Assembly (NCBI GenBank): GCA_002869385.1
Contig: PKTB01000003.1
Location: 24,843-88,842 of the forward strand
Direction: 5' to 3'
DNA length: 64,000 nt
From: Marinilabiliales bacterium
GTDB lineage: Bacteria; Bacteroidota; Bacteroidia; Bacteroidales; ML635J-15
The notes under the pieces were generated by a model that saw only the letters and a program-made list of their open reading frames with translations, was not told the DNA's origin and ran no database searches. Position 1 is the first letter of the stretch. Every line of letters starts with the position of its first letter. Positions 1,338 to 59,921 of this stretch are shown here, piece by piece. A program made the position numbers and the translations under genes.

Positions 1338-4300
1338 ATGAAAAATTTCTATGTTTTATTAGGGCTATTGTTGTTTGTTCCTGCAATAGCTTTTTCTCAA
1401 TTAAGTGTTACCACTGCAGATGTAAGTAACTTAATTGATTTCGACAATACAGTTGCCGGTGTTAATGAAGGAGCTTTTGATGGTTCTGGTTTTATGATGA
1501 CTCCGGTTACAGGTCAACTAGATGCTGACGGCTGGGCTGTTACAGGTATGTCAGATGGTGATAAAGATTTTGGTGTTGAAAACACAACAGGAGACCATGC
1601 AAGAGGAAATACAGATGGTGGGCTTGTAACAACAGGAGGTATGTATTCTTTTAATACATCAGAAGGAGTTTCAATTGGATTTCAATAGACAGGATCAGAT
1701 TTTACTCCGGGAACAATCGCATTAAAAGTTGATAACAACACTGGCGCAGAGCTGACAAGTGTAAGTTTAGAATATGACATTCTTGTTTATAATGATCAAA
1801 CAAGATCAAACTCTGTTACTATTAGCTATTCAAGCGACAACATTACTTATACTGAAGTAACAGGAGAAATGTATGCAACAACAGTTTTAGCTAGTCCAAG
1901 TCCTGATTGGTAAATATATCATCGTATTGTTACTTTCAATTTAACATTAGCTGATGCTGAATCTGTTTATTTAATGTGGACATTCGACGATAAAGGTGGT
2001 GAAAGCTCAAGAGATGAGATTGCATTAGACAATATTGATGTGGTTTTATCAGCTACACCTGCAAGCGACTGTGGTCCAATTAGCAGCTTCCCTTGGAGTG
2101 AAGATTTTGAATCATATTCTGATTTATCCGAATTAATTGACGTATGCTGGGAAGCAAGATATGGTTTTATTTCTGATGAATCACAACTAACCGAGGATGA
2201 TAATTTTAACTATTTTTACATTAGTGATTTTGCAAATGGAGCTTCCAATAATTCTATGGTAGTCAACCTCTATGATGAAGCTGCACATGACTGGGTAATT
2301 ACACCCGCATTTGATCTTGGTGATGGTAGCACAAACTATATGTTAGAGCTGGATATTGCTTTAACAGAATATTATAGTGCTACTCAAGGTGCTTTTGAAG
2401 AAGATGATTATTACGCTTTTGTAGTTTCAACTGATGGTGGTGATACATGGAGTGAGTTAAACGTAGTAGACGCTATTGACTCTGATAATGATGGCATACC
2501 TGCTGCAGGAACTCACTATATTGCCGACCTTACCGGTTTAACAGGAATAGTTAAGTTTGGAATATATGGAGTTTCAACTCTGAATGGACCGGAAGATTAT
2601 GATATTGAAATCTTTGTAGACAATCTAATGATCTCCGAACTAAGCGGATGTCTTGATCCATTTGGTGCAGGCTCATATGTTGTTGACGCATCATCTGTTT
2701 ATATTGATTGGGAAGATCTTTTAGAAGGTTCAAATCTATATAACCTTGAATATGGAACAGCTAGTTTTACCCAAGGAACAGGAACTTTGGTTGAAGGAAT
2801 TTCAGTAACAGAATATCTTATACATGAACTAACATTTGGTGATTATGATGTGTATATTCAAGCTGATTGTGGTGGTGGAAGTACTTCATCATGGGTTGGA
2901 CCAATTTCATTTACTTTAGAAGCAGGTGGAAGTTGTGCTACAGCCTTTGATTATGGTATGATAAATGACCCAACTGTTAGTAACACTATAGAATCTCTGG
3001 AGGAAGTCTGGTATTATGTAACATTAGATACTGACTATGATAACGTCTTATTTTCAACATGCGGTTCCCTATTTGATACAAAAATGTCTGTTTTAGTTGA
3101 ATGTGATGAACAAATAGGCTATAATGATGATGATGAATTAGGTCTTTGTGGTATTAATAATGAATCTACAATATTCTACCCTCATCTTCCTGCTGGGGTT
3201 TATCAAGTAAGAATTAACGGTTATGATGCTGATTCATATGGTGATTTTGATCTTACAATCACTAGTGACGAACCAATACCACATTTAATGTATTCAGGAG
3301 ACGCATTCTATGAATCTATATCAAATGACGGAACAATTTCTACAGTTATATATGTTGAATTAGAAAATGACACATTCACCGATGTTGATGTTGATTTCAC
3401 AGATGGTTTTGAATATACTTCTTATGGTGTTCCTACCAGTCTAAATATGGTTGTACACACATTAACAGAAACAACTGCAACAATCACATTAACAGGTACA
3501 GCAGACAGCCATACTACTGCTGACAACACTTTAGTTGAAATAGAATTTGACGATATCGCTTTTACAACTTATGCTGCAGGTGATGTAGTAAATTACTTTG
3601 CAGGATTCAATTTAGTATTTACTGACGAAGTTTTAGTTGTAGATCTAGCACTTATTGAACCTCAATCAGGATATGCTTGTAATGTTGATGATCAAACTCA
3701 TGTTCCATATCAATTAGAAAATGTTGGTACAGCTCCAATAGCATCAGGAACTCCAATTGGAATTATTTTCGAATCAGAATCTGTAGTTATAGTTGATGAG
3801 CCTATTATGCTAACTGAAGATTTACTACCTTCAGAAACATTCGAAGGACTCACTGTGGGAACTGTTGATCTATCAACAATTGGCGCAACTTACTTCAAAG
3901 CATATATTGACTTCGCACCTGATTCTGACCATACAAATGATACTTTAAACGGTTGGGTTGTACATTTTATGCAAGATGTAAGTTTCCCTGATGATGATGA
4001 TATGAACGATACAATTATTGTTGGCGCTTATCCATATACAATTGATGCTGATGTAGCTTATACGCCAGACTCCGCTTTCTTAGCGTCAAACACTAACTGG
4101 CAATGGGTTGGTGGTCCAATGGCTGACACCTACGAGGTAAGTACTGATGGTTGGTATTATATTGAAGTTGAAACTGTTGGTTGCTGGACACTTGATTCTG
4201 TATATGTTAAACTAATGACTCCTGCAGAACTTGCTGTTAACGACTTAAACTTGAATATTTATCCTAATCCGGCTAGTGAGAACTTTGTTGTAGAATATAG

Positions 4301-4490
4301 CTCTGCCGAAAGTGGTAATCTTAATATATACATATTAACTGTTGATGGTAAAGTAATAGAAACCAGAAGTTATGATTTTGATGGAGAAATCCGTGAATCA
4401 TTTGACATTTCTGACTATGCTCCGGGAATGTATATAGTTCGTTTTAACAATAATGGAAAAACAATTAACAAACGCCTTATCAAAAATTAA
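1338..4490 (+). CDS. T9SS-sorted secreted multidomain protein (two in-frame stops)
   Basis: One frame of 1051 codons encodes a large secreted protein interrupted by TAG at 1686-1688 and TAA at 1911-1913. Reading through both gives continuous beta-rich sequence, so this is one gene and not two. Residues 1-20 are a signal peptide ending AFSQ. The middle has a cleaved-adhesin/MAM-like segment starting FPWSEDFESYSDL and a pre-peptidase-like beta domain (around VWYYVTLDTDYD). The last ~80 residues form a type A T9SS sorting domain starting at LNIYPNPASENF and ending in a basic tail, so the product should cross the outer membrane through the T9SS and be anchored or released there. No enzymatic motif is visible. 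Either the stops are sequence errors or the gene is decayed. As written, only a 116-residue exported fragment would be made without readthrough. Confidence 0.75.
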
Positions 4491-4508
4491 ATAAGATTTC
4501 ATTTATTA

Positions 4509-4541
4509 AAAAACCGCATTATGATTTAATGCGGTTTTTTA
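4509..4541 (+). terminator. Rho-independent terminator after T9SS cargo gene
   Basis: AAACCGCATTA pairs with TAATGCGGTTT around a short loop and runs into a T tract, 19 bases after the stop codon. Confidence 0.85.
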
Positions 4542-8902: not shown

Positions 8903-11900
8903 CTATTGATTATTTAAATTTCTTTCTTCTTCGGCTTTTTTAGCTGCTTCATCTACCGGTTCCTCAGGAATAGCATCAAATCTGAGTTTTGTTCCATCCC
9001 ACCACATTGGAGTAGCATTTCTGTTTGTTATGTTGTCATTGAACATAAAGCCTTTTAGATTATTACTGAATTCTTCATTAGCAATATCTTTTGGTAAGTT
9101 TGCCTCTTTATAATCAATACGTTCTGCAACAGCTATCCATGTGAAGTTAACAGTATTACCTGTTGAATTATCATTAGCAATTACAAAACCGTCATTTCTA
9201 ATTTCTTTCACATATAAAGGAGCCCAAACACCTACAGCAGAAACAGTAATAGTAGGTAGATTATCTGCACTTACTAATGCAACAAAATCTTTATCAAAAG
9301 CTACAAATACTTCACTTGAATTTATTTCAGATTTTCCATCTGCATAAACTTTTAAGTTTGTAGATGTTACAGTATATGCAGCATTTCTTCCTTCTGCAGA
9401 AGTTACAATATCAGCAGAGAAACCATCAGTATAAGAATTCCCATCATTATAAAGAGCATACATTTCACCTGAAGTTGTAAATCCCATGAGTTCACCATAA
9501 GACCAACCTCCCATAAGACTACCATACGCACCTATACCTATTTGTGATAATTCTTCATCAGGCATAAATCCTGTACCAGTTGTTGAAGAAGTGAAATATC
9601 CACCATAAGTTGAAGAGCCACTATTCTTATATCCTAATGAACCCCAATAGCTACCATCATATCTTGCTCCAAGAACACCACCTGCTCTAGTATAATCGTT
9701 CCAATTAAAACCTGATGTACCAAATGAATAAAGATCTCCCCAATAATTATAACCTTTTATTGCAGAATTAGAAGTAGAATATGAATAATTTGTACCATCA
9801 TTTTGTGAATCTCTGGTTCTGTATGCATATAGACTTGCTTGTCCATCACCATCAGCTGTTAAATGTTGATCATAAACATACAATCTATAGTCTGTCGAAG
9901 GTGTAGTATTAATTGCAGTATGACCGTGATAACCGATAGTCATTCTTTTTGATAAAGTCGTTGTTCCATCATCAGTTGTCCAAAAAGACATATCTGTTGG
10001 GTAATCTCCTGATGCACCAGTAGTACCTCTTTCAACTAATATTCTTGCTTGTCCTGTTGTTGAATGAGTATCTCCAAAATCAATAATTGACATATCTGAA
10101 CCAGAACTTGTCAGATTTCCTCCGTATTGCAAAAACATACTTGTTCCTGTACCAGTTATATGCATGAGTGCATTAGGAGAAACATTACCTATACCTAAAC
10201 GATTACTAGCTGCGTTATAATAAAAACTACCCGGATCATACGTCTGTGTATTTGCTCCATTCCAATATGACACATATCCACTACTTCCTGTTCCGGTTAC
10301 CATATTGGTATGTGTATGATCACCCTCTGCAACAGTATTTGCCGCAGTTCCAAAAGTAGCACTAAAGGTTGTTCCAGCAAGAGTAATACCATTACCTGCA
10401 GAATATGTTGTATTATCATCATTTGCATTAACCCAAGCTTGTATATCTGTCCAATGCTGACCATCAAGTAAATCAGCATCTAGATCTGAACCAGTACCTT
10501 CAGACACATCAAATGTTGTACCTGTTAATGTCAATTGATTACCAGCAGAATATGTAGTGTTATTATCAGGAACAGTTACAGTTCCACCTCCATCTGACAA
10601 TGTAATATCATGGCCAACAATGCTTAAAGTTTGAAACTCATTAGCTGGATCCGCATCTGCATCTGTATCATCATCCAAAGCAGAAAGGTCAACTGTTGCA
10701 GAAGTTCCATTTTCGATAAAGATTTCAAGTGTATTACCAGTTAAAGTTGCACTTGTCAGATTCTGATCATCTGTTCCGGTTCCATCTTGCAAAGAAGCTA
10801 AATCTACTGTCTCGTTTGTTCCACCTTCGATACCAATTGTTAGTACTGTTCCTGCTAAGCCTGAACCAGAAACATTTTGGTCGTCTGTTCCTGTTCCATC
10901 TTGTAAAGCAGCTAAATCAACTGATGCTGATGTACCATCTTCTATATCTATTTGAAGTGTTGTTCCGGTTAAACTTGCTCCAGTTAGATTCTGATCATCT
11001 GTTCCTGTACCGTCTTGTAAAGCAGCCAAATCAACTGTCTCATTTGTTCCGCCTTCGATACCAATTGTAAGTACTGTTCCTGCTAAGCCTGAACCAGAAA
11101 TATTTTGATCGTCTGTTCCTGTTCCATCTTGTAAAGCAGCCAAATCAACTGATGCTGATGTACCATCTTCTATATCTATTTGAAGTGTTGTTCCGGTTAA
11201 GCTTGCTCCAGTTAGATTCTGATCATCTGTTCCTGTACCGTCTTGCAATGAAGCTAAGTCAACAGTTTCATTTGTTCCGCCTTCGATACCAATTGTTAGT
11301 ACTGTTCCTGCTAAGCCTGAACCTGAGATATTTTGGTCGTCTGTTCCAGTTCCATCTTGTAAAGCAGCCAAATCAACTGACGCTGATGTACCATCTTCTA
11401 TATCTATTTGAAGTGTTGTTCCCGTTAAGCTTGCTCCTGTAAGATTCTGATCGTCTGTTCCTGTTCCATCTTGTAATCCTGCCAGATCTACAGTCTCATT
11501 TAAACCATTATCAATGCCAATTGTAAGAACAGTACCTGTTAAATTCGAACCAGAAATATCCTGATATTCATTAGTTGGGTCAGCATCTGCATCAGTATCA
11601 TCATCAAGCGCTGACAAATCAACTAAAGCAGATGAACCATTTTCTATGTCGATTTGCAAAGTTGTACCAATCAAAGACGCACCTGTTAAATCCTGATCAT
11701 CAGTTCCAGTTCCATCCTGCAATGCAGCCAAATCTACAGATGCTGATGTCCCATCCTCAATATCAATTTGAAGTGTTGTTCCTGTAAGTGATGCACCAGT
11801 AAGATTTTGGTCATCACTACTACTTCCTGCTAAAGTTGCAAGATCAACATTTTGACTTGTTCCATTTTCTATTCCAATTGTAAGAACTGTTCCTACTAAA

Positions 11901-13435: not shown

Positions 13436-14085
13436 ATCCTTGGGGTTTTATCGTTATTATCAATATTAAAGATCAATACAAAATGTATTGAAACTGCTCT
13501 GTTAAATAATTTTTGATTGTCTCCAACATTTAGATTTTTTTCAAGTTGTCCAAATCCGGTAGAATTGCGTAATTCAAAATAAATTCCTGCAATGCTTGTA
13601 AAATCATATTGAACACCAATAAATTCGCTCAAACCGAAATCAATCTTCTTAATGCTTTCACTATCAAGCATATTATAATACTCTTCTCCAATAAACTGGT
13701 CAGCTTTGTACAAATATGCAAAATATGGTGAAATACCTGCATATGGTTTAAATTTCCATTCATTATAAATATATCCTGCACCAAAGTTTAAATCCAGGTA
13801 ATTTAATTACCATTTGAGTCTTTGATTATTGTTAATAATTGATACAGCTCCCCAGTTCTTATATCCTAGTTCGGGACGAATAAAAATGCCCATATCAAAG
13901 ATTTTCGAATAATTTACTCCATAAGAATAATTAATATCAGAGCTGAGTGTTTCGTCAACTGTTCCCTCTGAATCCACAAATTTGAATTTTGAATATGTTT
14001 GGGCAAAATGAACAGAAAAATTATTCTGACCAAATGCTATCATGACAAAAAACAACAAAGTACTTATAATTGTAATCTTTTTCAT
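13432..14085 (-). CDS. Outer-membrane beta-barrel protein (in-frame TAA)
   Basis: One frame of 218 codons with TAA at 13807-13809. The N-terminal half has a signal peptide (LLFFVMIAFGQ) and strands such as FSVHFAQTYSKFKF and YSYGVNYSKIFDMGIFIRPELGYKNWG. The C-terminal half continues directly with YLDLNFGAGYIYNEWKFKPYAGISPYFAY and ends AVSIHFVLIFNIDN. Alternating aromatic/hydrophobic residues and repeated Gly-Tyr/Phe pairs are those of a small 8-stranded porin-like barrel. The two halves only make sense joined, so the stop is a substitution in an otherwise intact gene. The stop codon overlaps the start of the giant repeat protein by four bases, and the gene begins three bases after the upstream T9SS cargo gene, giving a tight operon. 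Confidence 0.7.
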
Positions 14086-14087
14086 AG

Positions 14088-15238: not shown

Positions 15239-15538
15239 TTAATTTATCGATGTAACTGATAGTCGTCTTTTTCTCCATCCGCCAACAAAAAGTCCTACTG
15301 CTAATATACCTACATTAAAGATACCTATTGAAAAAACTCCCACACTAAATATTCCGGCTGAAAAGATACCAACTGAAAACATTCCAGCTGAAAAAACACC
15401 AGCTGAAAAACTTCCGGCTGAAAAATAATTTAATGTAAACTCTCCCGCACTAAAAACGCCTCCGGATACAAACTCTAATATTATACCTCCAATAATTAAA
15501 ACTAGTGCAATTAATGCAATCCAAATATTCTTTTTCAT
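15239..15538 (-). CDS. Hydrophobic FSAGx pentapeptide-repeat membrane protein
   Basis: 99 residues starting at the ATG at 15538 (MKKNIWIALIAL), preferred over upstream in-frame starts because it begins a TM segment. Residues ~28-88 are a regular five-residue repeat, F-S-A/V-G-x (SFSAGVFSAGMFSVGIFSAG), then FNVGILAVGLFVGG and a basic tail GWRKRRL that would stay in the cytoplasm. The period of five with Phe at one corner and Gly at another recalls pentapeptide-repeat beta-helices and the NxGxG-type repeats of mycobacterial PPE proteins, but this one is entirely hydrophobic. It may form a membrane-embedded solenoid or a set of short membrane strands. Function is unknown. Confidence 0.75.
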   Translation of the reverse strand: MKKNIWIALIALVLIIGGIILEFVSGGVFSAGEFTLNYFSAGSFSAGVFSAGMFSVGIFSAGIFSVGVFSIGIFNVGILAVGLFVGGWRKRRLSVTSIN

Positions 15539-15674
15539 AACTTTAAATTTTATAATTAACAAAATATTATGCTGCAATATTAAGTCCTGAATATTATATT
15601 TCAAAGCATTTGGGACGCTATACAATCTTTTGTGATAACTTGCATAAGGTTTGTGATAAGATTATTATCTGATT

Positions 15675-16532
15675 CTATTTGCGGGAATTAAGAAGTGCTT
15701 TTTTAAATAATTTTGTTTGACTTCTTGATACAGGAATTTGAACTTCGCAATTCTCAATTGTCAAAACATATCCTTGAGAATTTCCACTAACTTTTTTTAC
15801 TTTATATATATTTACGATATATGCCCTGTGAGTTTTAATAAAGCAATTACTATCAAGACTTTATTCAATATTTTTAATTGTATTTCTAATTAACTGCCTT
15901 TTCATAACACCTTCAGAGCAGTAATTAACATTTATATAGTTTCCATCAGACTCCATAAAAAGAATTTCATTAATCTGAAATGCAAACTCTTCTTTTCCGG
16001 AATTTAGTTTTATAAGAGTATTATCAATAGTAGTTCCTGAACTATCAATCGAAGAGTTTAACTTCTCTGATGAATCTATATTCCGTCTTAAATGTAAATT
16101 CCATGTAATTAAGATTATAACAACAATAGGAATAATTGCAATTGCTAAAGTAAAGAAGGTAAAGAGTACAAATCCTGTTAAACCATGCCAAGTAATGACA
16201 TTTAATTTTACCGAATATAAATAATTTCCTACAACAATTGTAAGAACGATAAAAATTAGCCATAAAACTTCCTTATATAGCTTCCAATTATCCTCGTTAA
16301 AGATATTCTTTACTATAAACGGAATCAGAATTAAGTCTATCAAAAGAACAGCAAATGTAACAAAGCCATAACCAATAATTATTAAATCTTTGTTTTCCGA
16401 CTCTAAAGACTGTAATCCAAATGGTTTAAAAACCCATAGAAATAATGAAATAAAAACACTGATTATAACAATCAATTTCCATTTATTAAGATTTTGCGGG
16501 TAGGGTTGATTTAGGACTTTACTAAACTTCAT
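15675..16532 (-). CDS. Membrane-anchored LytTR regulator (in-frame TAA)
   Basis: 286 codons with TAA at 15861-15863. The N-terminal ~145 residues hold about four TM segments (LIVIISVFISLFLWVF, YGFVTFAVLLIDLILIPFIV, VLWLIFIVLTIVVGNYL, LFTFFTLAIAIIPIVVIILI). The C-terminal part is a LytTR DNA-binding domain: FAFQINEILFMESDGNYINVNY before the stop, and after it, in the same frame, CFIKTHRAYIVNIYKVKKV and a final VQIPVSRSQTKLFKKALLN. Histidine-Arg-Ala-Tyr and the SRS motif are hallmarks of the recognition half of LytTR domains, so truncation at the stop would remove most DNA contacts. Without a receiver domain, the membrane part is the likely sensor. It starts one base into the stop of the upstream gene (TAATG) and closes a five-gene operon. 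Confidence 0.8.
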
Positions 16533-18052
16533 TATTCAAAAACTATTTTTGAAATAAAATAAATCTTTCTCTTTCTTTCAACATCTTTATTTTCTTTATT
16601 CTTTATCTTTTGATTCCCATAAGCGATAAAAACATTTCCATACCAATAGTATATATTTGAAAAAGACCTTTTTACTTTATCTCCTTCAAATCCTGTTTCA
16701 ATTTCTTCAGTTTGAAAATCAGAAATTACTTGACCATCATTTCATAGCAGCTTTGTCATAATTCGATTATAGCTTACATAAACCATTTTCACACTCTGGT
16801 CATCATTTTCAGCAACATAAATAAACTCTTTAACTCTAAAAGGTTTATATGTAGGCCACATAGAAAAAGTCTGATCCCAGATAAGATCCCCATCAAAACC
16901 GAATTTGGCAATATATGCATGTGTGTATTGGTACCCGTCAAACACCTGTCTGGTATGTGTTGTTACAGTTGTATGCCCATTTACTGTTGAAGTTGTAGTA
17001 TAAGTTTCAGTATAATACGTTGCATAGTATGCTTCTCCAATTAATAAATAACCGTCATCCCTAACAATTACATCATGTGCTGCTATATTATAATTTAAAG
17101 CAAAATCATTGCCTCTTGATTCCTTTCTCTTCTTTTTCTTTTCAATTTTTTTCTGTCTTTTTTCAGGTAGATAAGATAAAAAGTTTTGCAAATCTATATA
17201 ATTATAAAATTTGATGTATTCCAATTGTCCATCAGTAATCTTAGAAATATAAATACCTTCTGATGTAACTTTCGAATCCTTTGCAAAAGTTCCTAAAACC
17301 AAGTATGAATTATCTGACAATTTTGAGGCAGTTGCACTAATTATATTTTGCTCCATGTTTCTAAAAACATCAAAAACTGCCTTTTTATCGCCTTTACTAT
17401 TAAGAATAACAATTTTAGATTCTGTCTTTTTTCTGCTTATTTTGGCTGAAACCAGAAGCATAATTTCATCTTCACCTTCTATTAACTGAAAGCTTTCTAA
17501 CATCAAATCCTTTGGTTTTGTTCCTGCAACAGACAACATTATTGGTTTTTGAAGTCCTGTGTTAAGGTTAATTGTGAATAGATATGAATTTCCTTTAATT
17601 ACACTTTTGAAATATGCAAAATCACCTGAAACAACCATATCTCTAATACGACATTTGCGAGGTAATGAACCAGAAATGCTTTCTAGACTCTTTTCCTGTG
17701 GATTTACTGTTACTATTACAAAATCACCTTTTACATTTTTAAAGATTGAATATAGTTCCTTTCCATCTGAGAATTTTTCATCAAGCCTAAGCTTTTTATC
17801 TACATCAATTTCAACACTACTTACTTTCTCCAAATCAGTATTGTAAAAATCATATACCCAATTTTTTGATTGTCTATCATCCGTAAAGTTTACTGTGCTA
17901 AATATAAATCCCTGTTCTCCAAACTCATAAATACCATTGTCATTAAATTCATCTTCTATTTCAATTCGTTTTCCATAGCTAATCTGAGAATAAAATGACT
18001 TGCTGAAAAGTAATAATAAAAGAATAGGAATATACTTTTTTAATAAACTCAT
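16532..18052 (-). CDS. Exported protein of unknown function, propeller-like (in-frame TGA)
   Basis: 507 codons with TGA at 16742-16744; the frame continues for 69 codons to the real TAA, which overlaps the LytTR start. The N-terminus LLLLLFSKSFYSQ is a signal peptide. Repeating strand-turn patterns (FVIVTVNPQEKSL, DGYLLIGEAYYATYYTETYTTT, GFDGDLIWDQTFSMWP) resemble beta-propeller proteins seen in Bacteroidota, where such blades end in a Trp-containing strand. A lysine-rich loop (KRQKKIEKKKKRKESRG) near residue 315 is unusual. The downstream part ends with YYWYGNVFIAYGNQ and IYFISKIVFE, consistent with a last blade. I do not know a function. It starts four bases before the end of the upstream membrane protein gene. 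Confidence 0.65.
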
Positions 18053-19070: not shown

Positions 19071-19760
19071 TTATTTACCAAAATAATAATTAGACGCATC
19101 ACAGCAGTCACCATAAAACAGCATCATATCAAATTGTTCCAAAACCATATCATATCGGATAACAACAACATCTCCGTATACTCCTAATACGTCAATCATA
19201 TCCATTATATCCTCCGACAGCATATCTAAAGCATAAATATAAAGGTAACTACCTTCAACTAATGTTTATTCGCTTAAACCTTCCGGCATCATAATATAAT
19301 CTTCAACCGGTTTTTCAAGATTAAAGTCCATTCCATCTTCAATAAAAGGAATTCTGAAAATTGGTTCACCCTGACAATACAAATTAACAGTAAGTTCATC
19401 ATCTACAACTATCTTCATTGTTTGCAATTTGTCTAATTCATCCTCATCCAAATCAATATCATAACCAAATCTTTCGCCTCCTTCATTTGCAGAACCGCTT
19501 GCATACCACTGTCCATCTTCGATATAATAATCTACCATTGTATTTGCGCCTAATAAGGCATTTGCAGATTGTAACTTATGCTCTCCAATAAGGGCTTCAA
19601 GAATATTCGCTTTTGTTAGTCCTGCCTGATTTTCGTCCGTCTGCTCAATATCCTGTTCGTTTTTTTTATCCTTTTCAGACTTATCACTTGTTGAACCTTG
19701 ATTACATGAAGCTACCAATAGTGAAGTAGCAAATAAAAATAAAATGAAATTTCTTTTCAT
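19071..19760 (-). CDS. Putative lipoprotein (in-frame TAA)
   Basis: 230 codons with TAA at 19266-19268. A lipoprotein signal ends at LLVASCNQ, with the lipid-accepting Cys at residue 19, followed by an acidic/lysine linker (SEKDKKNEQDIEQTDE). The first 164 residues then carry a compact alpha-beta domain (GQWYASGSANEGGERFGYDI). After the stop the same frame continues with VEGSYLYIYALDMLSEDIMDMIDVLG up to a TAA only seven bases before the next gene. That tail explains an otherwise unexplained ~190-base gap in a tight operon. Function is unknown. It is the first gene of the operon ending in the LytTR regulator. Confidence 0.65.
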
Positions 19761-29094: not shown

Positions 29095-31023
29095 TTATTC
29101 TACAGTAATTTCAAGAATTTCTCCAACATAATCTTCAGCTGGAAAAGGAATATTTTCAGTATGATACGGTGAGCCTGGCCACCAACCTGTATTATGAAAT
29201 TCCTGAGTAACGATAAGCAACATCTGATTCCCAGGAATCATTGAAATAGTCTGATCAATGTAACCAACTTCGTACAACATATCTTTCTCCGGACCTATTC
29301 GCCATATTATTTTATCTGGTTGCAAGTCTATCTGAAAATAGAAATAATCTCTACCAAACACATCATCGTCAGGAGCCATATATTTTGTAGTAACTGCCCT
29401 ATAACAATCTTCCCATCTGTGAGCCAAATATGTTTTACCATTATGAGTAACTTCATGACAACCGGCAGAGAAATTTTTAGGTTCCCAACATGCCATATCC
29501 CAATTAGTACAACAAACTGCTATATCTGCATCATGTTCCAACACATCTTCTGGTAATTCAGTATCCCAATCTCGTACTTTATTAGTATGAGCTTCGTAAT
29601 TACTGTAAACTGGTGGAAACTTACTGGAAGGACAATATGGGACAGTCTTTAAAATTTCAAAATCAATTTCTGAATAAGCAACTCTTTCGACACGCTCATC
29701 AAATCTACCTCCCCAATATGTTTTCATATAACCTTTTTCACGACATGGTCTACGAAGATTCCATCCGGTTTCATTAGATCCTCTACCTCCTTGATAAATC
29801 AACCAAATTGCATTGGTAATTCCATTCCAGACATTATCATAGTTCAACAACTCTGTAAGATTAGCTTTAACAGTAAACTTACCATATGTAAAACCATGTC
29901 TGGTTATCATTCCGACATTTTGTTTTTGCCAATTTCCATATGTAGATTTTGGATTTCTGATAACAATTTTATCTTCAACGGAATCACTTAAAATGGTTTC
30001 ACATGGGACTTTAGGCGTCTGGGGAACTACCTTTATACGATCTTCAGGGCCATAAAATGCTCTTAACCAGTTATATTCTTCTTTAGTAAAATTACCGTTA
30101 AAAAAATCAACAATTACAGGGACATTATTGAACTGTGAAGATTCATCTATATAATGAATAAACTGAGCCACCGGAGCTTTCTAATACATCTCATCAGATT
30201 CATTACAATTACAATTATAGTAATCTTCAAAACCTTCATCATCCTTATTTACGAATTTATATTTATCAATATAAACACCATCTCCAAGGTCAGGGGATGC
30301 TTTTACATTAATAAATTTCTCATTTAAACTTACCTGACATGATTCTAGCTTAGATCCATCGCCATGCTTAAAGAAAAAGAAAGGTGAGATAAATTTATCA
30401 TTTTTCGTTTTGTTTATGTTTACAATTTCTTCTGGGATTTCTTTTAAAGTTTCCGAATTTACAATAACTATCATTAAGGTATAATCCCCAACTCTTGGAT
30501 TACGTTTCCATCTGTCATTTTCCCCTTCGTAAAAATACTTCTCTTCATTTCTTGGATTTCCAACAATCCTGAAGGAGTCCTCAACTTTTATTTGCTCCCC
30601 TGATTTTATCTTTCCGCATGGTTTAAACCCAATTTGTGTATCTTCCCAACTACCGTAGAAATTCTCATGGGCAAATTCATGCTGTTGCCCTTCATCAGAA
30701 GGGTTTGCATCTGGAAATTTATATGATTCATTTTGATAATAAATATTGTAAAAATATTCTTGGTCTTTATCTGATGTGTTTTTTACAGAAAACTCTATAT
30801 CAAATTTACCATTAGATGTTTGATTTTTACTTGGAATAACAAAACCTCTGATTGCGCCTTCATAATCCATCCAAATTGTTTTCTGCTGATAATTCGTTAT
30901 TTTCAGTGCACTTACCTCAATATTTGAATTATTGAGAGGTTTCTTTTCATGCTTACAAGAAAATACAACGCTTAGGATAAATAAAAAGGGCAATATTATA
31001 TTTAGCTTCTTCATATTATTCAA
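29095..31023 (-). CDS. Lipoprotein with GH16-like glycanase domain (in-frame TAG)
   Basis: 643 codons with TAG at 30181-30183. The N-terminal part is a lipoprotein (LFILSVVFSCKHE, Cys near residue 23) with a beta-sandwich domain. After the stop the same frame continues KAPVAQFIHYIDESSQF, with only a weak GTG at 30171 as alternative start and no export signal of its own, so one protein is more likely than two. The C-terminal part resembles a concanavalin-type fold of GH16: YGKFTVKANL, VWNGITNAIWLIYQ and SEIDFEIL. The E-I-D-F-E there (about residues 452-456) matches the GH16 nucleophile, Asp and acid/base pattern. Several cysteines (CCTNWDMACW) suggest disulfides. It probably cuts or remodels the polysaccharide handled by this locus. 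It overlaps the upstream gene by eight bases. Confidence 0.7.
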
Positions 31024-35001: not shown

Positions 35002-37152
35002 ATGAAAACTTATCAAACCGACCAGATCAGGAACATTGCCCTTGTAGGTAATTCAGGTTCCGGTAAAACATCTCTTGCAGAGAGCATGTTACAAATAGGT
35101 GGGGTAATCAAAAGAAAAGGAGACATTGGTAGTAAAAACACTGTGTCTGATTATCGCCCTATAGAACAAGAAAACGAAAACTCACTTTTTTCAACAGTAC
35201 TATATACTGAAATAGGAAATACAAAAATCAACATTCTCGACAATCCGGGCATGGATGACTTTGTAGGAAACCTTGTTTCCTCATTATTTCCGGCGGATAT
35301 TGCATTAATGCTAATAAATGCACAAAACGGAGTTGAAGTTGGAACTGAAATTCATAACAGATATATTGATAAAGCTGGTAAACCAATGATTATTGCTGTA
35401 AATCACCTTGATCATGAAAAAACCAACTTTGACAAATCAATTGATAATATCAAAGAAACTTTTGGTGGGAATGCTGTTGTTGCACAATTTCCAGTAGATG
35501 CAGGAGTTGATTTCACTTCAATTATCGATGTTATTACTAATAAAATGTACACTGTAAAAGGTGATAAGGTTGAAATAGCTGACATCCCTGCTGAGCATGC
35601 TGATAAAGCTGAGGAATACAAAACTGAGCTTATTGAAAAAGCTGCTGAGGCTGATGAATCTCTTATGGAATTATTCTTTGAGAACGACACTCTTACTGAA
35701 GAAGAAATGATGAGAGGTATAGCTGCAGGTTTACCACAAAGAGGAATTTTTCCAATTTTCTGTATTAATGCAAGAAATGATCTTGGTGTAAAACGTCTAC
35801 TTGAGTTTATCTCAGGCGTTACTCCTTCACCTGACAAATTTGAAGCAGTTAAGGACACAGATGGCAATGATGTTGTATGCGATGCTAATGGAAAACCATT
35901 ATTATTTATCTTTAAAGCATCAACTGAAGAACACATTGGCGAAATCTGTTACTTCAAAGTGTTACGCGGAACATTAACAGAAAGTATCGACTTATACAAT
36001 CCTAAAACTAACGCTAAAGAAAGACTTTCATCTTTATTTGTTTGCGCTGGTAGAAATCGTGAGAAAGTAGAAAAACTTGTTGCCGGTGATATTGGAGCTA
36101 CAGTTAAACTTAAAGCGACAAAAACTTGTCACACTTTAACAGCACCTGGAGATGATACTCAAATTCCTGTTATTTCATGGCCAAATCCTAAATACAGAGT
36201 TGCTATCAAGCCTCTAAGTGAAGGTGACGAAGAAAAACTTGGTGAAGCGCTTAACAGAATGAAAGACGAAGATCCAACTATTATTGTTGAGTATTCAAAA
36301 GAGCTTAAACAACTTATTGTTCAAGGACAAGGTGAATATCATTTAAATATACTTAAATGGCATCTTGACAATCAGTTTAAAATTGAAACTGAATTCTTAA
36401 AGCCAAAAATTCAATATAGAGAAACCATTACTAAAAAAGCTGCTGCTGACTACCGTCACAAAAAACAATCCGGTGGTGCTGGACAGTTTGGTGAAGTTCA
36501 TCTGATTATTGAGCCATATACAGATGGAATGGCTGATCCAACAATGTTTAAAATTGATTGTAAAGAAATTAAAATTTCTGTAAGAGGAAAAGAAGAACAC
36601 AAACTTGAATGGGGTGGTAAATTAGAATATTTCAACTGTATCGTTGGTGGTTCTATCGACGCTAGATTCCTTCCTGCAATCCTTAAAGGTATTATGGAAA
36701 AAATGGAAGAAGGTCCACTTACAGGTTCATACGCTCGTGATATCAGAGTTTTTGTAGTTGATGGTAAAATGCACCCTGTTGATTCAAATGAAATCTCTTT
36801 CAAACTTGCAGGACGTAATGCTTTTAGTGCAGCATTTAAATAAGCAGGTCCAAAAATTATGGAACCGGTTTACAATCTTGAAGTTTTAGTCCCTGGTGAC
36901 AGAATGGGTGATGTTATGAGTGACCTTCAAGGTCGTCGTGCTATTGTTCAGGGTATGAGTAGTGAAAAAGGATTTGAAAAAATCACTGCAAGAGTTCCTC
37001 TAGCTGAAATGAGTAACTATTCAACTGCGCTACGTTCTAACACAGGTGGCCGTGCAATGTATGAAATGTCATTCTTTGAGTATCAGCAAGTACCACCAGA
37101 CGTACAAGAGCAACTTCTTAAAGAATACGAAGAGAGTCAAGAAGAAGAATAA
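35002..37152 (+). CDS. EF-G paralog (EF-G2-like) with degenerate GTPase motifs (in-frame TAA)
   Basis: 717 codons with TAA at 36841-36843. The frame resumes AGPKIMEPVYNLEVLVPGDRMGDVMSDLQGRRA, which is domain V of EF-G, so the ORF downstream is the same gene. The P-loop is GNSGSGKTS (residues 16-24) instead of AHIDAGKTT. The switch II motif is DNPGMDDF (80-87) instead of DTPGHVDF, so the catalytic His is absent, and the NKxD box is NHLD (134-137). Domain IV (HKKQSGGAGQFGEVHLIIEP) is intact. Bacteroides species have an EF-G2 paralog described as supporting translocation without GTP hydrolysis, and this gene matches that type. It has its own promoter and a following terminator. If the stop were real and not suppressed, domain V would be lost. 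Confidence 0.85.
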
Positions 37153-37290: not shown

Positions 37291-37755
37291 ATGAGATTCA
37301 AAGTAATATTAGTAATTAGCTTAATTTTTACTATTACGGCATGCACATATTATGAGCATGGTCCAGTACTATCATTTAAGTAAGTAAAAACAAGACTCTC
37401 AGGAGAATGGGAGCTTACTGATGTAATAATTAATGACAAAACTGATGATGTTATTCTAGAAAATGAAAACGATATAACTTATCAATTTGTTGAGGATGGT
37501 AGCTTAATTATTAAAAGCAATAGTAATACCAGATCTATCCCGGATGTTATCAATGGAACATGGGAACTTAATAATGATAAAACCTGTATCATATTGGATA
37601 TAGATAATATCAATTCCGAAATTAGCATTCCCAAAGATGAAATGACTATTTTAAGGTTAACAGATGATGAATTGTGGATATATGACGAATGCTCAGCTTT
37701 AAGAGAGTCTGACTATATTACCGAAAGACGTTACAGAAAAATATCTAAACTATGA
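37291..37755 (+). CDS. Tandem lipoprotein paralog 1 (in-frame TAA)
   Basis: 155 codons, with TAA at 37381-37383. The signal LVISLIFTITACTYYEHGP places the lipid-accepting Cys at residue 18. The next motif LSFK, then after the stop VKTRLSGEWELTDVIINDKT, aligns with the other three lipoproteins (SFSSPEKRIAGDYTVEAYY; SLLTKKARITGTWTLSEM; TVIPAESRIKGTWNQVEWY). It ends with IYDECSALRESDYITERRYRK. The alignment to its neighbours is what shows that the stop is internal. Its final stop overlaps the next start (ATGA). Confidence 0.7.
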
Positions 37756-38192: not shown

Positions 38193-38260
38193 TAACAATT
38201 TTTGTTATATATTCGCATATAAATTATAAACTAGTACTAACTAAATTAAATTAAATTTTT

Positions 38261-38707
38261 ATGAAAAAATTTGCAATTATTTTAACTATTGTTGCTGCAA
38301 CAGCAATGATTTTTTCTTCATGTGGTAAATACGAAGAAGGACCTGCGTTCTCACTTCTAACTAAAAAAGCTAGAATTACAGGTACATGGACTTTATCAGA
38401 AATGACAATTGATGGCGAAGTTCAAGATTTAGCAGGTATGACAACAACAACAGTTCTTGAAAAAGATGGAACAGGTTCAATGACTGCTTCATTTGGTGGA
38501 TTTTCTTTCTCAGCTGACATAGAGTGGGAATTTGATGACACTAAAGAAAACTTAAGAACAAGAACTTATGATGCTGACTCTGAGGAGTGGAGCGATTGGT
38601 CAGAAACTAAAATCACAAAACTTACAAACAGCGAATGCTGGATGGAAGATTCTGAAACTGTAGGTGAAGTTACAGTTGTTACTGTTACTAAAATGACAAA
38701 AGAATAA
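38261..38707 (+). CDS. Tandem lipoprotein paralog 3
   Basis: 148 residues. Lipobox MIFSSC with Cys21, then GKYEEGPAFSLLTKKARITGTWTLSEMTIDGE. The second block is DGTGSMTASFGG and DIEWEFDDTKENLRTRTYDADSEEWSDWSETK, ending ITKLTNSECWMED. It is close to paralogs 2 and 4. A 68-base gap upstream, containing TTTGTTATATATTCG, may hold a weak promoter. Confidence 0.82.
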   Translation: MKKFAIILTIVAATAMIFSSCGKYEEGPAFSLLTKKARITGTWTLSEMTIDGEVQDLAGMTTTTVLEKDGTGSMTASFGGFSFSADIEWEFDDTKENLRTRTYDADSEEWSDWSETKITKLTNSECWMEDSETVGEVTVVTVTKMTKE

Positions 38708-38711
38708 AAGT

Positions 38712-39131
38712 ATGAAAAAGCTTATTGTATTAAGCATCATTGCACTTTCTTTAGCTGCTACTTTTAGTGCGTGCACTACTTATGAAGAGGGACCTGCATT
38801 TACAGTTATTCCTGCAGAATCTCGTATTAAAGGAACTTGGAATCAAGTTGAGTGGTATGTAAACGATGAACTTCAGGACAATACCTTTATCGTCAACTTT
38901 ACATTCAATTCTGATGGTACCGGATCCCAAACAGTTACTTGGGGAGGTATTACAGATACTAACGATATTGACTGGGAATTTAATGACGATAAAACTCTGA
39001 TTATGTTCAAAAATACTGATGCTGAAGAATGGGATGAAGCTACAGTAAAAAGATTAACTACTAAAGAATTATTGATTGTTGAAGACGCCGGACTATTCGG
39101 CATCTGGGAATTCAGATATGAAAAGGTTTAA
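38712..39131 (+). CDS. Tandem lipoprotein paralog 4
   Basis: 139 residues. Lipobox TFSAC with Cys21, then TTYEEGPAFTVIPAESRIKGTWNQVEWYVND. The second block is DGTGSQTVTWGG and DIDWEFNDDKTLIMFK, ending VKRLTTKELLIVED and WEFRYEKV. It starts four bases after paralog 3 and is followed by a strong terminator, closing the array. Confidence 0.82.
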   Translation: MKKLIVLSIIALSLAATFSACTTYEEGPAFTVIPAESRIKGTWNQVEWYVNDELQDNTFIVNFTFNSDGTGSQTVTWGGITDTNDIDWEFNDDKTLIMFKNTDAEEWDEATVKRLTTKELLIVEDAGLFGIWEFRYEKV

Positions 39132-41396: not shown

Positions 41397-43463
41397 ATGA
41401 AAATAAAAAATTTAATTCTACTTTCACTCGTTTTTATTGCAGTGATTTCATGTAATCAGGTAAATAATGATCCAAAGAATCAAGATTCATTTGATTTTAG
41501 TATCTAAAAAGAAACTATAGACGAAACTATTAGATCTTTAAAAGAAAAATACTCTGATGCACACTCTTTTAGAATAGAAAAAGGCGTTAAGCAAGTTGCT
41601 GCATTATGGCAGGACACAGATGGGAGCGTAGAGGATTTCCAGACTTTCTGTCTTGAAAACTTTATTGCAGACTCAAGTGAATTAGAATTAGCTTACGACA
41701 AGATTGAACGTAACTTCGAAGTCGTTTTTGGTATGTATAACAGTATGACTATTAAACTTATGGAACCTCTTCATCTTGATATGGGAGATATTCACTATGT
41801 TGATGAAATTATGGGTTCTTACTCTCCTTCTTCTCACCTTACCGAAGATCTATTTAACAATAAAATGGCCTTTTATATCGCATTGAATTTCCCATCATAT
41901 TCTTTAAAGGAAAAAACAGAGAATGCAGAAAACTGGACTCGTCGTGATTGGGCATATGCAAGAATGGGTGACATGTTTATTTCCAGAGTACCGGCAGACT
42001 TACAACAAAATGCTGCCGTAATCTCAACAAATGCTGATACTTATATTGCTGACTATAATATCTATATGGGTAAACTCGTAAATGACAATATGGAAACATT
42101 ATTTCCTGAGGATCTTGTACTGATTACTCATTGGGGATTAAGAGATGAGTTAAAATCAAATTATAATGCTGAAAACGGGTTTGAGAAACAACAAATGATT
42201 TACAATGTCATGTTAGATATAATAAATCAGGACATCCCTCAAGAAGTAATAAATTCTGGAGATTACATCTGGAATCCGGTAAGCAATAAAGTATACGACA
42301 ATGGACAAGAAATGTCCTTTACTACTGAACCATTTACAAGATATGAACACCTTCTTCATAACTTTAAAGCTCTATCCGCAATGGATAAATATAATCCGGT
42401 TTATCCTACATATATCGACAGGGCATATTATGAATCTATGGAAATCAGCAAAGAAGATATAGAAGCTCTATTTATCGAATTTATCACATCACCTGAGATT
42501 GCTGAAATTGCTAAATTAATAAAGACTCGTCTGGGAAGAGATTTACAACCATACGATATATGGTATGATGGGTTTAAAGCTCGCACAAACATAAACGAAG
42601 AGGATCTTAATAAAATTACTCGTAGAAAATATCCTAATCCACAAGCATTTGAAAATGATATTCCAAGAATGTTGGTTGACTTAGGTTGGTCAAGAGCTAA
42701 AGCTCAAGAAATTGCTAATAAGATTAGTGTTGACCCAGCTCGAGGCGCAGGCCATGCCTGGGGATCTGAGATGAAAGGCGATAATGCACATCTAAGAACT
42801 AGAATTCCAGCAGAAGGAATGGATTATAAAGGATATAATATTGCTACTCATGAATTAGGGCATAATGTTGAGCAAACATTAACATTATATGATATTGACT
42901 ATTATATGCTCAAAGGAGTCCCAAACACAGCTTTTACAGAAGCAATTGCATTCTTATTCCAAGCAAACGATCTAAAGCTATTAGGACAAAGTAATAATGG
43001 AAATTCTGAGGAAGCAGAAGCATTAGCAGCTTTAGACAATTGTTGGTCTGCCTATGAAATTATGGGTGTGTCGCTACTGGACATGTATGTTTGGGAATGG
43101 ATGTACGCTCACCCTGATGCTGATCCAAAAGAACTACAGGAAGCTGTTGTTAATATAGCAATAGAAGTATGGAATGAGTATTATTATCCAGTTTTTGGAA
43201 TAAAAGACTCTCCAATCTTAGCAATTTACTCGCATATGATAACATCTCCTTTATATCTTGCAAATTACCCTGTTGGTCATTTAATTGAATTCCAGATTGA
43301 ACAATATGTAAAAGACAGACAATTTGCTGATGAAGTTACAAGAATGCTACTTCAAGGTCAGATAATCCCTCAAGAATGGATGAAAGGTGCTGTTGGAAGA
43401 GAAATTTCCGGTGAACCAACGCTAAAAGCAGTTGATCATGCACTGGAAATCATTACAGAATGA
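41397..43463 (+). CDS. HExxH zinc-metallopeptidase-like lipoprotein (in-frame TAA)
   Basis: 689 codons with TAA at 41505-41507. The lipoprotein signal LILLSLVFIAVISCNQ puts the lipidated Cys near residue 19. After the stop the frame runs on with KETIDETIRSLKEKYSDAHSFRIEKG, a helical domain. The C-terminal half has an HExxH zinc motif, HELGH at about residues 485-489, and a candidate third ligand Glu515 in TEAIAFLF, spaced as in gluzincins. Helical content and arrangement recall M3/M49-like peptidases, but HELGH differs from the M49 motif (HELLGH) and I cannot place it in a named family. It should face the periplasm or cell surface. It overlaps the following exported TsaA-like gene by four bases (ATGA). 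Confidence 0.75.
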
Positions 43464-52392: not shown

Positions 52393-54363
52393 ATGAAAAA
52401 GAATACTTTGTTTATCTTAATAGTTCTTGCAGGAGCAGCAATTCTTGTAAGTTCTTGTAAAAAAGAAGTATCGAGTACAACCGGATGGAATTACAACGAT
52501 CCTAATTTCGGTGGATTCCAAAATCATCCGTGATATGAACAAGAAACCGGACCTGGCCTAGTATTTATTGAAGGTGGTTCGTTTGCTATGGGTCGTGTTG
52601 AACAAGACGTTATGTACGACTGGAACAACATTCCAAGAAGAGTAACTGTATCTTCATTCTACATGGATGAAACTGAGGTAAGAAATCTGGACTACAGAGA
52701 GTACCTCTACTGGTTATCATATGTTTATTCATCAGACTATAGATTCTTATACAGAGAGGCTTTACATGACACTTTAGTTTGGAGAGAAAGACTTGCATAT
52801 AATGAACCTATGGTTGAGCTATATTTAAGACACCCTGCATATGAGCAATATCCAGTTGTAGGAGTAAGTTGGGTACAAGCAACAAAATATTGTGAATGGC
52901 GTACTGATCGTGTAAACGAATTAATTCTTCTTCGCGAAGGTATTATTGATAAATATATTGCTCCTCATGATCAAGCAAAACATTTTAATACTGATGCATA
53001 TCTTATTTATGCTGAAAACTTAGATTTAGCTGTTGATGAAACAGGTAAAGGTCCTGACGGAAAAGTTCAAAATCTTTATGTTGACCCTGCAACACTTCAG
53101 GCTGGTCGTAAAGGTGGCGCTGTAAACACAGGAGAAGACAGACGTTGGGTAAGAATGGAAGATGGAATTTTCTTACCACGTTACAGACTACCAACAGAAG
53201 CAGAGTGGGAATTTGCTGCATTAGCACATATCGGTAACCACTACAGAGAAATAATTTATGAAAGAAGATTATACCCATGGAATGGTCACTATATCAGAAA
53301 CGATTCGCGCGGTGAGGAAAGAGGCCTAATGATGGCTAACTCAATGCGTGGTCGTGGTGATAACATGGGGGTAGCTGGAGCGCTTAATGATAAAGCTGAT
53401 ATAGCAGCTCCTGTTAAATCATACTGGCCTAATGAATATGGATTATATTGTATGGCTGGTAATGTTAACGAATGGGTAATGGACGTTTACAGAGATCTTA
53501 CTTTTGAAGATATGGAAGAGTTCAGACCATTTAGAGGTAACATCTATACTGACTATGAAGTAATTATCGACCCACGATCTGGTGATATTGAATTAACTCC
53601 TGAAGCTGAAAACTATTTCGATTATTCTGGAAAGATTCTCCGTAAACCAGTTAGAGATGAAGAATGTTACAGTCGTGAAAACTATACAACTTCTGATAAC
53701 AGAAACTATCTTGATGGTGACTTAGAATCATTAATACCAAACGGAAATGCTGAAGAATACTGGGTTAAAGGAGACAGATATGAATTTGAATCTGATGAAA
53801 TTAAAGTGAACGATCCTGTTGCTGAAGGTCTTACCGCAGAAAATGTCGGTGACATCTATCCTGGTGCTACTTTAATGTCTGGTGGAAACGAAATTCTTCT
53901 ACCTAATGGAATTAAAGTTGATCTTCAAAATATGACTTATATATTACCTACAGGTCATGAGAAAACTGCTGACGGAAATATCCTAATGCCTGATGGATCA
54001 ATGGTATTACCTGATGGTAAATTGCAACTAGCAGATGGTAGTATTATCTATCCTGATCAGTTCTTCAAAAAGTCTACTCCTGGTATGTACCAAGAAGGTA
54101 ATTGGGGTGAATATGGAGAATGGGGATTTGGTCAATTTGATCCTTCTAATCCTAAAATCAACAAAGGTGATGGTATAACAGGTGAACAAATGACAACTCT
54201 TGTATCTGACCGCTCTAGAGTATTTAAAGGTGGTTCATGGAAAGACAGAGCCTATTGGATGGTTCCATGTACCAGAAGATTCTTAGATGAAAAACTCGCT
54301 CGTGCTGACCTTGGTTTCAGATGTGCAATGGATAGAGTTGGATCTCCTATAATAGAAGACTAA
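52393..54363 (+). CDS. gldJ: GldJ-type gliding/T9SS lipoprotein (in-frame TGA)
   Basis: 657 codons with TGA at 52531-52533. The N-terminus LFILIVLAGAAILVSSCKK is a lipoprotein signal, with Cys near residue 21. After the stop comes YEQETGPGLVFIEGGSFAMG, the start of a formylglycine-generating-enzyme-like fold: VSSFYMDETEVRNLDYREYL, PVVGVSWVQATKYCEWR, RLPTEAEWEFAALA, GLYCMAGNVNEWVMDVY and the final VFKGGSWKDRAYWMV ... DLGFRCAMD. These are GldJ/GldK features, and GldJ is favoured by its position next to porU/porV and before murF. An insertion near residues 490-555 carries PDG-type repeats. Without readthrough the lipidated part would be lost. Confidence 0.85.
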
Positions 54364-56850: not shown

Positions 56851-56851
56851 T

Positions 56852-57490: not shown

Positions 57491-57503
57491 CTTATTTTTT
57501 ATT

Positions 57504-57534
57504 CAAACATACATAAAGTTTTGATGAACCCAAA
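57504..57534 (-). promoter_or_regulatory. Promoter (TTTG-19-TATGTTTG) of the lipoprotein-methyltransferase pair
   Basis: Minus-strand TATGTTTG at 57504-57511 and TTTG at 57531-57534, 19-base spacer, 14 bases before the lipoprotein ATG. Confidence 0.7.
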
Positions 57535-57596
57535 ATCAAAAATAGAATGCGATATAGTAAATTACAATTTTTTGCTCATATACTAAGAGAATACGT

Positions 57597-59921
57597 TTAA
57601 TAATCAAATACTCTTTTATTGAAAATCACATATCCAAAATGCAGCATAAAATAAGTAGTGCTGGAATCGGTATCATAGTAATTTACCGTAAATGCTAATG
57701 GCCCAAAGTCTGTATTATAAACTAATCCTGCCATTCCAAGAAAATGAAGGTAAGCATACCTTTCACTATAATAAGGTTCGTAAACTCTGTCGATTAGCTC
57801 TCTTTTTAGTATCTTTTCAAATGGTGCAAAAGCATATACCTCAAATCTTAGATTTAGCCTATCTGTAAATTTAATAATTGGTTTTAAGCCCAAAGCGGCA
57901 AAAGAGTTTGCACGATAATTTGGTAAAAATAGTGTTTTACTATGAGGTGTGGGACTAAAAACAGGAGCTGACAATATACTTGATGTGTAATTTCTAAAAA
58001 GTTGTTTATTACTAACCAATAACTCTGCATAAACACCCATTGTGAAATGCTTAGAAACTCTTGAATAGGAATCCGAAACAGCATCAAATTGAATCCAAGA
58101 ATGATCCATTCCATAATAATCAGTTAATGAGGTAGTAGATCCAGGAATATTTTCCTCATAACCAAAAGTATACCTTAAACTCATTTGATTTTTACTCCCC
58201 TTTGTTGTATATTGAATATAATTATGATTATTTCTGACAATACTAAAGTGGAAAGTATTTAACATAAATGAAGTATAATCTGCAGTATCATTTTGTAAAA
58301 AATTACTCACCTGAAAATAATCGTAAGTCTGAAATCCTGTAGCATAACCAAGTTTTATAACAGACATTCTTGTTAAAGGTGTAAATAAATCTACTCTAGT
58401 ATTATTATCATAATTAATTAAATATGGGGGGCGATAATCCAACGAAAATAATCGCGAATTACCTTTGAAATAATCAAATCTATTTACGTTTGCTGCTACC
58501 TCAAGAGCCAAAGGTGTACTGAAAGGAAAATCCAATCTTCCTGAAATATGCAATGAACTATATAATCTTCCAAAATACAAATTTGCATTAAGCAAAGTCG
58601 AAACTCTGTTTAATATTTTGTAGTTAAAACCTACAAATCCAGTATTTGAATAACCTGTTGACAAACCTGCACCAAATAAAACATCTGCTCGTTTTTCCTT
58701 TTTTACATTAAATATTACATCAAAAAAACCTGTAGTATCATTAAATCGAGCCAATGGAGTAGCAGTTTCGATCTGAAAATCTGAGATTAGCTTATAATAT
58801 TCTGATTCAAGCTGCCTAATATTTAACTTTTCTGACTTTCCTTTAAAAGAATTAATAATATAATCCTGCGATTTCTGGTCAATTCCTTGAATGTATATCT
58901 TATCAAAATCAAATACAGGGACTTTCGTCTGAAAATCTTGCCTTCTTTCTGCAAGCATAACGGAATCTTGTTTTCTTGGAATTCTACCTTTAATACTATC
59001 CATCATAAGCATGCAGGTTTCATATCCCTTTTGAGAAAACTCATCAATCCTGTGAAAATCAAGTAAGCTCACATTTGTAAAATCAATATTTATAGTAATC
59101 CCCTCGTCGGGTGGAACTTCATACTCCTTTTTTTCACCCATTATCATGTTTTCTATCTGCAGCATTAAATCATCAGGATTAGGTTTTTCCGAATAACTTG
59201 TAACACTAACCCCAATCATAATATCCGGATGAAATTCATTTCGCATTACATCAACAGGGAAATTATTATAAATACCTCCATCAAAAAAAAGAACACTATC
59301 AATTACAACAGGTTTAAAATAGAATGGAAATGTCATTGATGCTCGTATAGACTGTCCAAGGTCTCCTTTTTTGAAAATAACTTCTCGATTATTATATACA
59401 TCAGAGCCGACACATCGAAAAGGAACAAATAAACTATCGAAATCACCATTTGCAGCAGCAGAGTATTGAGCAAAATATTCCATTATGCCAAAATCCATCG
59501 GTTGAGTAGCCACAAGATTTGTTGGTAATACAATATTAATATTACTATCCAATCGGGCTAGGCCAAGACTAAATGACGACGCATCAGGTTCTGTTGTCTT
59601 AAAATAATAATACTGATCATCAGGTATTTGACCTTTATAATAATTCAGAAATCTTTCTTCACGAAACATTTGCTCCATTTGATCGGGAGTAAGACCAATA
59701 GAATATAGCCCTCCGATAATTGCACCAATAGATGTTCCAACAACATAATCAATCGGGATATTATTTTCTTACAAAGCACGAATAACGCCAATATGAGCCA
59801 TACCTTTAGAGCCTCCTCCACTTAAAACTAAACCAACAGTTTGTGAAAAAGAAGCTACAGGAATAGTTATAGTAAAAAGTAAAATCAATAATATTTTGGT
59901 TCTTATACCGACTGATGACAT
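57597..59921 (-). CDS. Patatin-like phospholipase with POTRA and beta-barrel, PlpD type (in-frame TAA)
   Basis: 775 codons with TAA at 59769-59771. The true start is the ATG at 59921 followed by a signal peptide (KILLILLFTITIPVASFSQ) and the patatin oxyanion loop VGLVLSGGGSKGMAHIG. After the stop come IPIDYVVGTSIGAIIGGL with nucleophile Ser64 (GTSIG) and Asp214 in FFDGGIYNNFP, completing the Ser-Asp dyad. A POTRA-like segment (DKIYIQGIDQKSQDYIINSFKG) follows, then a ~400-residue barrel with strands such as VLFGAGLSTGYSNTGFVGFNY, ending YFMLHFGYVIF. This is the type Vd architecture, in which the barrel holds or exports the lipase. A start at 59678 would lack the catalytic serine, so the longer frame is the real gene. 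Confidence 0.85.

Follow-up and report, generated by a model that had tools for sequence, protein, structure and literature searches.

Twelve in-frame stop codons in a Marinilabiliales genome are probably G:C-to-T:A misreads confined to one assembly

An excerpt of a report dealing with exome read mismatches and variant calls (PMC12390751) identifies oxidation as the main source of artefactual G>T changes, while real mutation of the same class is documented, in the extracts available of another report (PMC5458099), for Elizabethkingia with a disrupted mutY, where 253 of 290 substitutions were G/C to T/A and where the Wisconsin outbreak of Elizabethkingia anophelis carried many nonsense changes of the GAA>TAA type (45 of 49 nonsense). 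Here, we consider twelve in-frame stop codons in eleven genes of a Marinilabiliales bacterium (Bacteroidota; Bacteroidales; ML635J-15), all located in a stretch of 64,000 nucleotides, referred to as the window, that covers positions 24,843 to 88,842 of contig PKTB01000003.1 in assembly GCA_002869385.1 and thus reaches the end of that contig (C4, 88,842 bases). At a probability of about 0.88, judged from sequence comparison, these stops are G:C-to-T:A misreads confined to one assembly, probably arising from oxidised guanine.

The changes described below resemble the 8-oxoguanine artefact in belonging to a single G>T/C>A class, in being private to one version, in having no strong motif and in coming with no indels that we could see; unlike the exome artefact as presented in the excerpt, they stand in an assembled consensus, at some 0.5-0.6% of G:C opportunities. 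With the mutY mutator E. anophelis they share the G:C>T:A spectrum, but in the extracts of that report the changes map to branches of an isolate tree, whereas here near-identical versions lack them and they occur in genes that cells need. No description of a G>T artefact in assembled metagenome genomes was found among the titles and abstract openings of the papers listed.

All twelve stops are present in the sequence at the coordinates and in the frames reported in a preliminary description of this DNA (for minus-strand stops the coordinate is the lowest base of the codon), six of them in plus-strand and six in minus-strand genes, with those at 1686 and 1911 sharing a single gene. At each of the twelve, the piece downstream scores best by codon usage in the interrupted frame, which contains no further stop, whereas the other five frames contain at least two stops each; 15861 scores only weakly, and the short piece upstream of 37381 falls slightly below zero. 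When ten gene pieces were scanned against Pfam, five matched a family, and all five were pieces lying downstream of a stop, with matches to a secretion-tail domain, LytTR, the EF-G C-terminus, a lipocalin-like domain and patatin.

The reading of these stops as misreads follows from near-identical copies of three interrupted genes, two in the window and one outside it, which lack the stop. Six such sister proteins are encoded on other contigs, two for the window EF-G, one for GldJ and three for a gene outside the window that we take, from its sequence and not from annotation, to be fusA, and all six are uncut. The EF-G family gene of the window (35002-37152, plus strand; this name, like those of GldJ and rpoB, comes from matches) carries a TAA at 36841..36843 and a Gly>Cys change (G>T) at 36559..36561, the latter at a residue that is Gly in 10 of 10 relatives. 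Its sister versions P0001 and P0002, both of 716 residues and located on contigs of 88,319 and 88,614 bases, have Ser at the stop, which corresponds to C>A, and Gly in place of the Cys; the other relatives have Asn or Lys at the stop position. The piece downstream of this stop is the one matched by EFG_C (PF00679). This version differs from P0001 at two places, both GC>TA and one of them the stop, while P0002 has a private change of its own, Ser526Tyr (C>A).

A similar picture is seen for gldJ (52393-54363, plus strand), which the preliminary description had rightly listed among the affected genes and whose TGA at 52531..52533 stands where six of six relatives, and the sister protein P0121, have Gly (G>T). 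P0121 is a full-length GldJ of 656 residues on an 88,614-base contig, and it differs from this version at six places: four GC>TA changes including the stop, one of ambiguous class (Gln>His) and one private to P0121, an Asn>Lys where the six relatives have Asn, like this version. The missense changes that P0121 does not share (52765..54270) are Pro125His (52765), Gln192His (52966, the ambiguous one), Arg287Ile (53251) and Gly626Cys (54268), and all four of the residues concerned are invariant in the six aligned relatives.

For FusA, the sister versions P0242 (700 residues) and P0244 (687 residues, with a later start) are uncut and identical over their aligned part, and this version departs from them at five places, of which four are G>T, the stop included, and one is ambiguous. 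The third, P0243, is also uncut and has two private changes that both fit G>T, namely Gly>Cys at a site with Gly in all seven relatives, and Arg>Leu at a site that varies. The three sister contigs measure 314,222, 167,443 and 4,249 bases as against 179,999 here, and these lengths, together with those of 88,319 and 88,614 bases as against 88,842, suggest that the sister contigs belong to other assemblies. Across the three genes, 10 of the 12 changes of this version are strictly G>T/C>A and the remaining two are ambiguous; its private differences amount to about 0.5% of 2,144 nonsynonymous G:C opportunities, near the excess of roughly 0.6% found in the comparison with relatives (see below). Three of the six sister versions (P0002, P0243 and P0121) hold private changes fitting the same class, and the informative relatives side with whichever version lacks the T or A. 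Comparison with apparent sister assemblies, of the kind that the preliminary description had proposed, returned uncut proteins for all three genes and, as far as protein sequences can tell, the compared stops (EF-G, GldJ and fusA) are not fixed in the organism. Duplicates within the genome itself offered no second reading of this kind: in 57 stretches (1,141,842 bases, some overlapping) there were 127 matches, with none usable among the 60 longest, the closest of which reached 97.9% over 885 bases with 5 of its 19 differences being G/T or A/C, in mixed classes.

The interrupted genes include several that are needed for life. The gene taken to be fusA (L114:9163-11265) lies between presumed rpsG and rpsJ in a ribosomal operon and has a TAG where seven of seven aligned relatives have Glu and, besides the stop, a Gly>Cys change in its DTPGHVDF motif. 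A second EF-G gene, on contig C19, has a TGA at a position that is Gly in all seven relatives, so that the three highest-ranking of nine matches to the window EF-G in this genome are all interrupted. What are presumably der and rpsB, also named from their sequences, are affected as well, der by a TAA where seven of seven relatives have Ser and rpsB by a second codon that makes its start read ATG TAA, where the relatives have Ser in three cases and Pro in four. Taken literally, such a cell could hardly translate.

The number of stops exceeds chance. Counting internal stops supported by at least two query genomes, we found 13 distinct ones in 85,029 aligned coding bases from stretches of this genome, of which two (L113:7200 and L114:5103) are not clear cases, against 2 in 666,753 bases across ten relatives, a denominator that is too large, as overlapping loci of the relatives were left unmerged. 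The only two internal stops among the relatives are at L248:780 and L004:3943 (G019 TAG, G020 TGA). Frameshifts were absent from the compared stretches of this genome, as the preliminary description had it for the window, with one such place found in the ten relatives.

The same substitution class is in excess beyond the stops. Over codon columns with one and the same residue in four or more relatives, those that vary or have fewer relatives being dropped, private G:C>T:A missense changes number 95.8 in 10,392 opportunities in this genome, a rate of 0.0092 with ambiguous classes split evenly, compared with 0.0015-0.0044 in seven congeneric genomes treated identically. Four other substitution classes fall inside the range of the relatives and AT>TA lies right at the top of that range (0.0055, the highest relative having 0.0054), and the contrast of GC>TA with the other classes, this genome against the pooled relatives, gives a Fisher p of 7e-8. 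The excess of G>T/C>A is present on four contigs, with GC>TA rates of 0.0099 in the window, 0.0129 and 0.0079 in two stretches of C19, 0.0169 in C17 (260 columns) and 0.0101 in C1. Radical replacements are frequent among the changes (Gly>Cys, Asp>Tyr, Trp>Leu, Arg>Ile, Pro>Gln), and all six stops at invariant columns are likewise GC>TA, at a rate of 6/1,573 or 0.0038, set beside an excess missense of about 0.006. Taken alone, G>T reaches 0.0100 against 0.0017-0.0037 in relatives. Among 81 events, the 3' neighbour of the changed G shows a mild excess of G (0.32 vs 0.21), which would fit guanine oxidation, although weakly. Plus-strand G>T and C>A appeared intermixed along the contigs, by eye, with no strand phasing seen.

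The preliminary description had already remarked that the stops were compatible with G to T, and this proved to be the key clue, the class being G:C>T:A; its wording that every stop fits a GAA, GAG or GGA parent went too far. Ser is found in both near-identical proteins at 36841 and in two of two aligned relatives at 41505, so these two fit the complementary C>A from a serine codon. In the mechanism we propose, an oxidised guanine (8-oxoguanine or an equivalent) would pair with A, so that G would be read as T and, on the other strand, C as A, and at places covered by too few reads or templates for the correct base to outvote the error the misread would be kept in the consensus; amplification from few templates is one possible route to an assembly that is rich in errors yet contiguous. 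In reads, an artefact of this kind would show as a strand asymmetry of the mismatches. As to cause, the preliminary description had ranked highest a low-coverage or mixed-strain assembly with substitution errors. Its assembly-error part is borne out by the six uncut sister copies, while its mixed-strain part lacks support, since nearly all differences between versions fall into a single class, unlike ordinary strain variation.

Several observations weigh against this account. Parent codons are suggested for only six of the twelve stops (those other than 1686, 1911, 13807, 15861, 16742 and 19266), and only two of the twelve could be compared with a sister version. Those comparisons used protein sequences, and the origin of the sisters in other assemblies is inferred. 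The changes are not all independent, in that Gly85Cys of the DTPGHVDF motif is common to this FusA and P0243, though absent from P0242 and P0244, and the two assemblies concerned may share some reads. The two ambiguous changes, GldJ Gln192His and FusA Arg496Ser, would count as A>T had the parent carried the codon commonest in relatives with that residue, and C>A alone is less distinct than G>T (0.0100 vs 0.0016-0.0081). In the rpoB/rpoC stretch of C1 the GC>TA rate is only 0.0047, barely above the highest relative, with the other classes low there too, and rpoB itself is uninterrupted. Finally, the long contigs (up to 754 kb) and N runs of 1-29 bases look like short-read scaffolding at fair depth, at which random damage should be outvoted.

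The rpoB/rpoC stretch does contain G>T/C>A changes at sites that do not vary among the relatives compared. In rpoB, the DVAHNQ motif has His where one of the two best solved RNA polymerase matches has Pro. Separately, the relative G001 has two rpoB matches (L255 and L261), a possible sign of a mixed bin.

A MutY or MutM defect has this same spectrum, and a living mutator lineage that had lost 8-oxoguanine repair, with real G:C>T:A alleles of which different assemblies sampled different ones, would have a precedent in the same phylum in the Elizabethkingia with disrupted mutY, at least as the extracts of that report present it (PMC5458099). Consistent with this, MutY passed its family cut-off in none of 25 genomes of the genus, this one included (weaker hits only), and MutM/Fpg in none of 41 genomes, by cut-offs that were reached in only 7 and 8 of 14 control genomes. 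The relatives, however, have no passing MutY or MutM hits either, and the seven measured show no excess; a loss of either gene private to this genome was considered and set aside, as no genus member examined has a passing hit and the difference would be left unexplained. Nor should a living cell tolerate stops in fusA, der and rpsB and the loss of the DTPGHVDF glycine of FusA; the stop rate of 0.0038 is comparable in size to the excess missense rate, which may mean little purging, although rpoB is open and the rpoB/rpoC stretch is at only 0.0047; and the changes are absent from the near-identical versions, except for FusA Gly85Cys in one of three, and so are not fixed in the lineage. We consider such a lineage improbable, and judge as quite improbable a related possibility, that of a natural Bacteroidales population, from a genus without MutY and MutM, in which a very heavy burden of real G:C>T:A alleles persists following exposure to oxygen, with dying or dormant cells providing the lethal alleles and each assembly sampling a different set of stops and missense changes.

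That many genes, needed ones among them, are interrupted by all three stop codons could speak for real stops with readthrough by suppressor tRNAs or through weak termination, which the preliminary description had ranked next, but the stop is missing from the near-identical versions of all three genes, suppression would leave the accompanying missense changes of the same class unexplained, and TAA, TAG and TGA all end normal genes too, so we give readthrough almost no credence. Reassignment of a stop codon was rejected on similar grounds, three stop codons being involved that each end normal genes (TGA at 13432, TAG at 15675 and TAA at 16532, for example) and the near-identical versions having sense codons; the preliminary description was right to exclude a single reassigned codon. 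Versions that differ by single bases might also point to recent pseudogenisation, a further suggestion of that description, or to this genome and its sisters being ordinary strain variants. This is hardly credible when 10 of the 12 changes are strictly G>T/C>A (the other two ambiguous), when informative relatives favour the unchanged version and when the three top EF-G family genes are interrupted together; for pseudogenisation, as for readthrough, the uncut sister versions and the accompanying missense changes contradict it. If a modified-base motif, and not damage, had caused systematic errors in basecalling or consensus, this would account for there being substitutions only and of one class; such a cause is very improbable, given that no strong motif was found within 8 bases of the 81 events and that different versions are changed at different sites. 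The stops are thus best taken as misreads: not a biological feature, but a quality problem of one assembly.

Nine further genes of the window are affected. On the plus strand, gene 1338-4490 encodes a secreted protein with a C-terminal sorting domain (Por_Secre_tail, PF18962, at the C-terminus) and contains a TAG at 1686..1688, where the single aligned relative has Ser (AGT), and a TAA at 1911..1913, where it has Gln (CAG), followed by a piece of 858 codons that scores as coding. A TAA at 37381..37383 interrupts gene 37291-37755, for a lipocalin-like lipoprotein with Lipocalin_4 (PF13648) downstream of the stop, at a position where relatives have Ser in three cases and Thr in one, suggesting a parent codon only indirectly. 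This gene is the first of four small lipoprotein-like genes in tandem (37291-39131), apparent paralogues by eye. In gene 41397-43463, the TAA at 41505..41507 faces Ser codons (TCG, TCT) in the two aligned relatives, which suggests C>A.

On the minus strand, two predicted products are cut at positions with no aligned relatives, a predicted secreted protein (13432-14085) by a TAA at 13807..13809, with no Pfam match in the piece after the stop, and a predicted lipoprotein (19071-19760) by a TAA at 19266..19268. The same lack of aligned relatives holds for the TAA at 15861..15863 in the gene of a LytTR-domain protein (15675-16532), where LytTR (PF04397, E 1.3e-11) is matched after the stop. The TGA at 16742..16744 in gene 16532-18052 has a single aligned relative, with Asp (GAT), whereas the TAG at 30181..30183 in gene 29095-31023 has Glu (GAA) in both of its two, suggesting G>T. 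In the patatin-like phospholipase gene (57597-59921), with Patatin (PF01734) downstream, the TAA at 59769..59771 stands where six of six relatives have Glu, corresponding to G>T. Also on this strand, by eye, are a 1,510-residue protein made up mostly of similar repeats (8903-13435) and a small protein with a repeated GxFSAG/GIFSVG-like motif (15239-15625).

The genome as a whole comprises 4.25 Mb in 28 contigs, at 93.35% completeness and 6.77% contamination, and the latter figure may be too high if false stops have split marker genes. Runs of N occur in 11 of 57 of its stretches, and several of its contigs end in or near tandem repeats (e.g. L130:1-2000 and L294:13265-17159). The named relatives found with the window EF-G are Bacteroidales and other Bacteroidota, mostly labelled as metagenome-assembled.

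Extrapolating from 13 stops in 85 kb of aligned coding sequence, false stops in the genome would number several hundred, and false G>T/C>A changes, if they affect about 0.6% of G:C sites, would run to several thousand, both figures being projections and not counts. The risk is that a genome of this kind is misread as pseudogene-rich, recoded or mutator, and comparing the private substitution spectrum with that of relatives is a simple check that detects the artefact. For the biology of the organism, the misread interpretation would mean that the interrupted genes are intact in the living cell, while the genus to which it belongs may lack the usual 8-oxoguanine repair pair, MutY and MutM.

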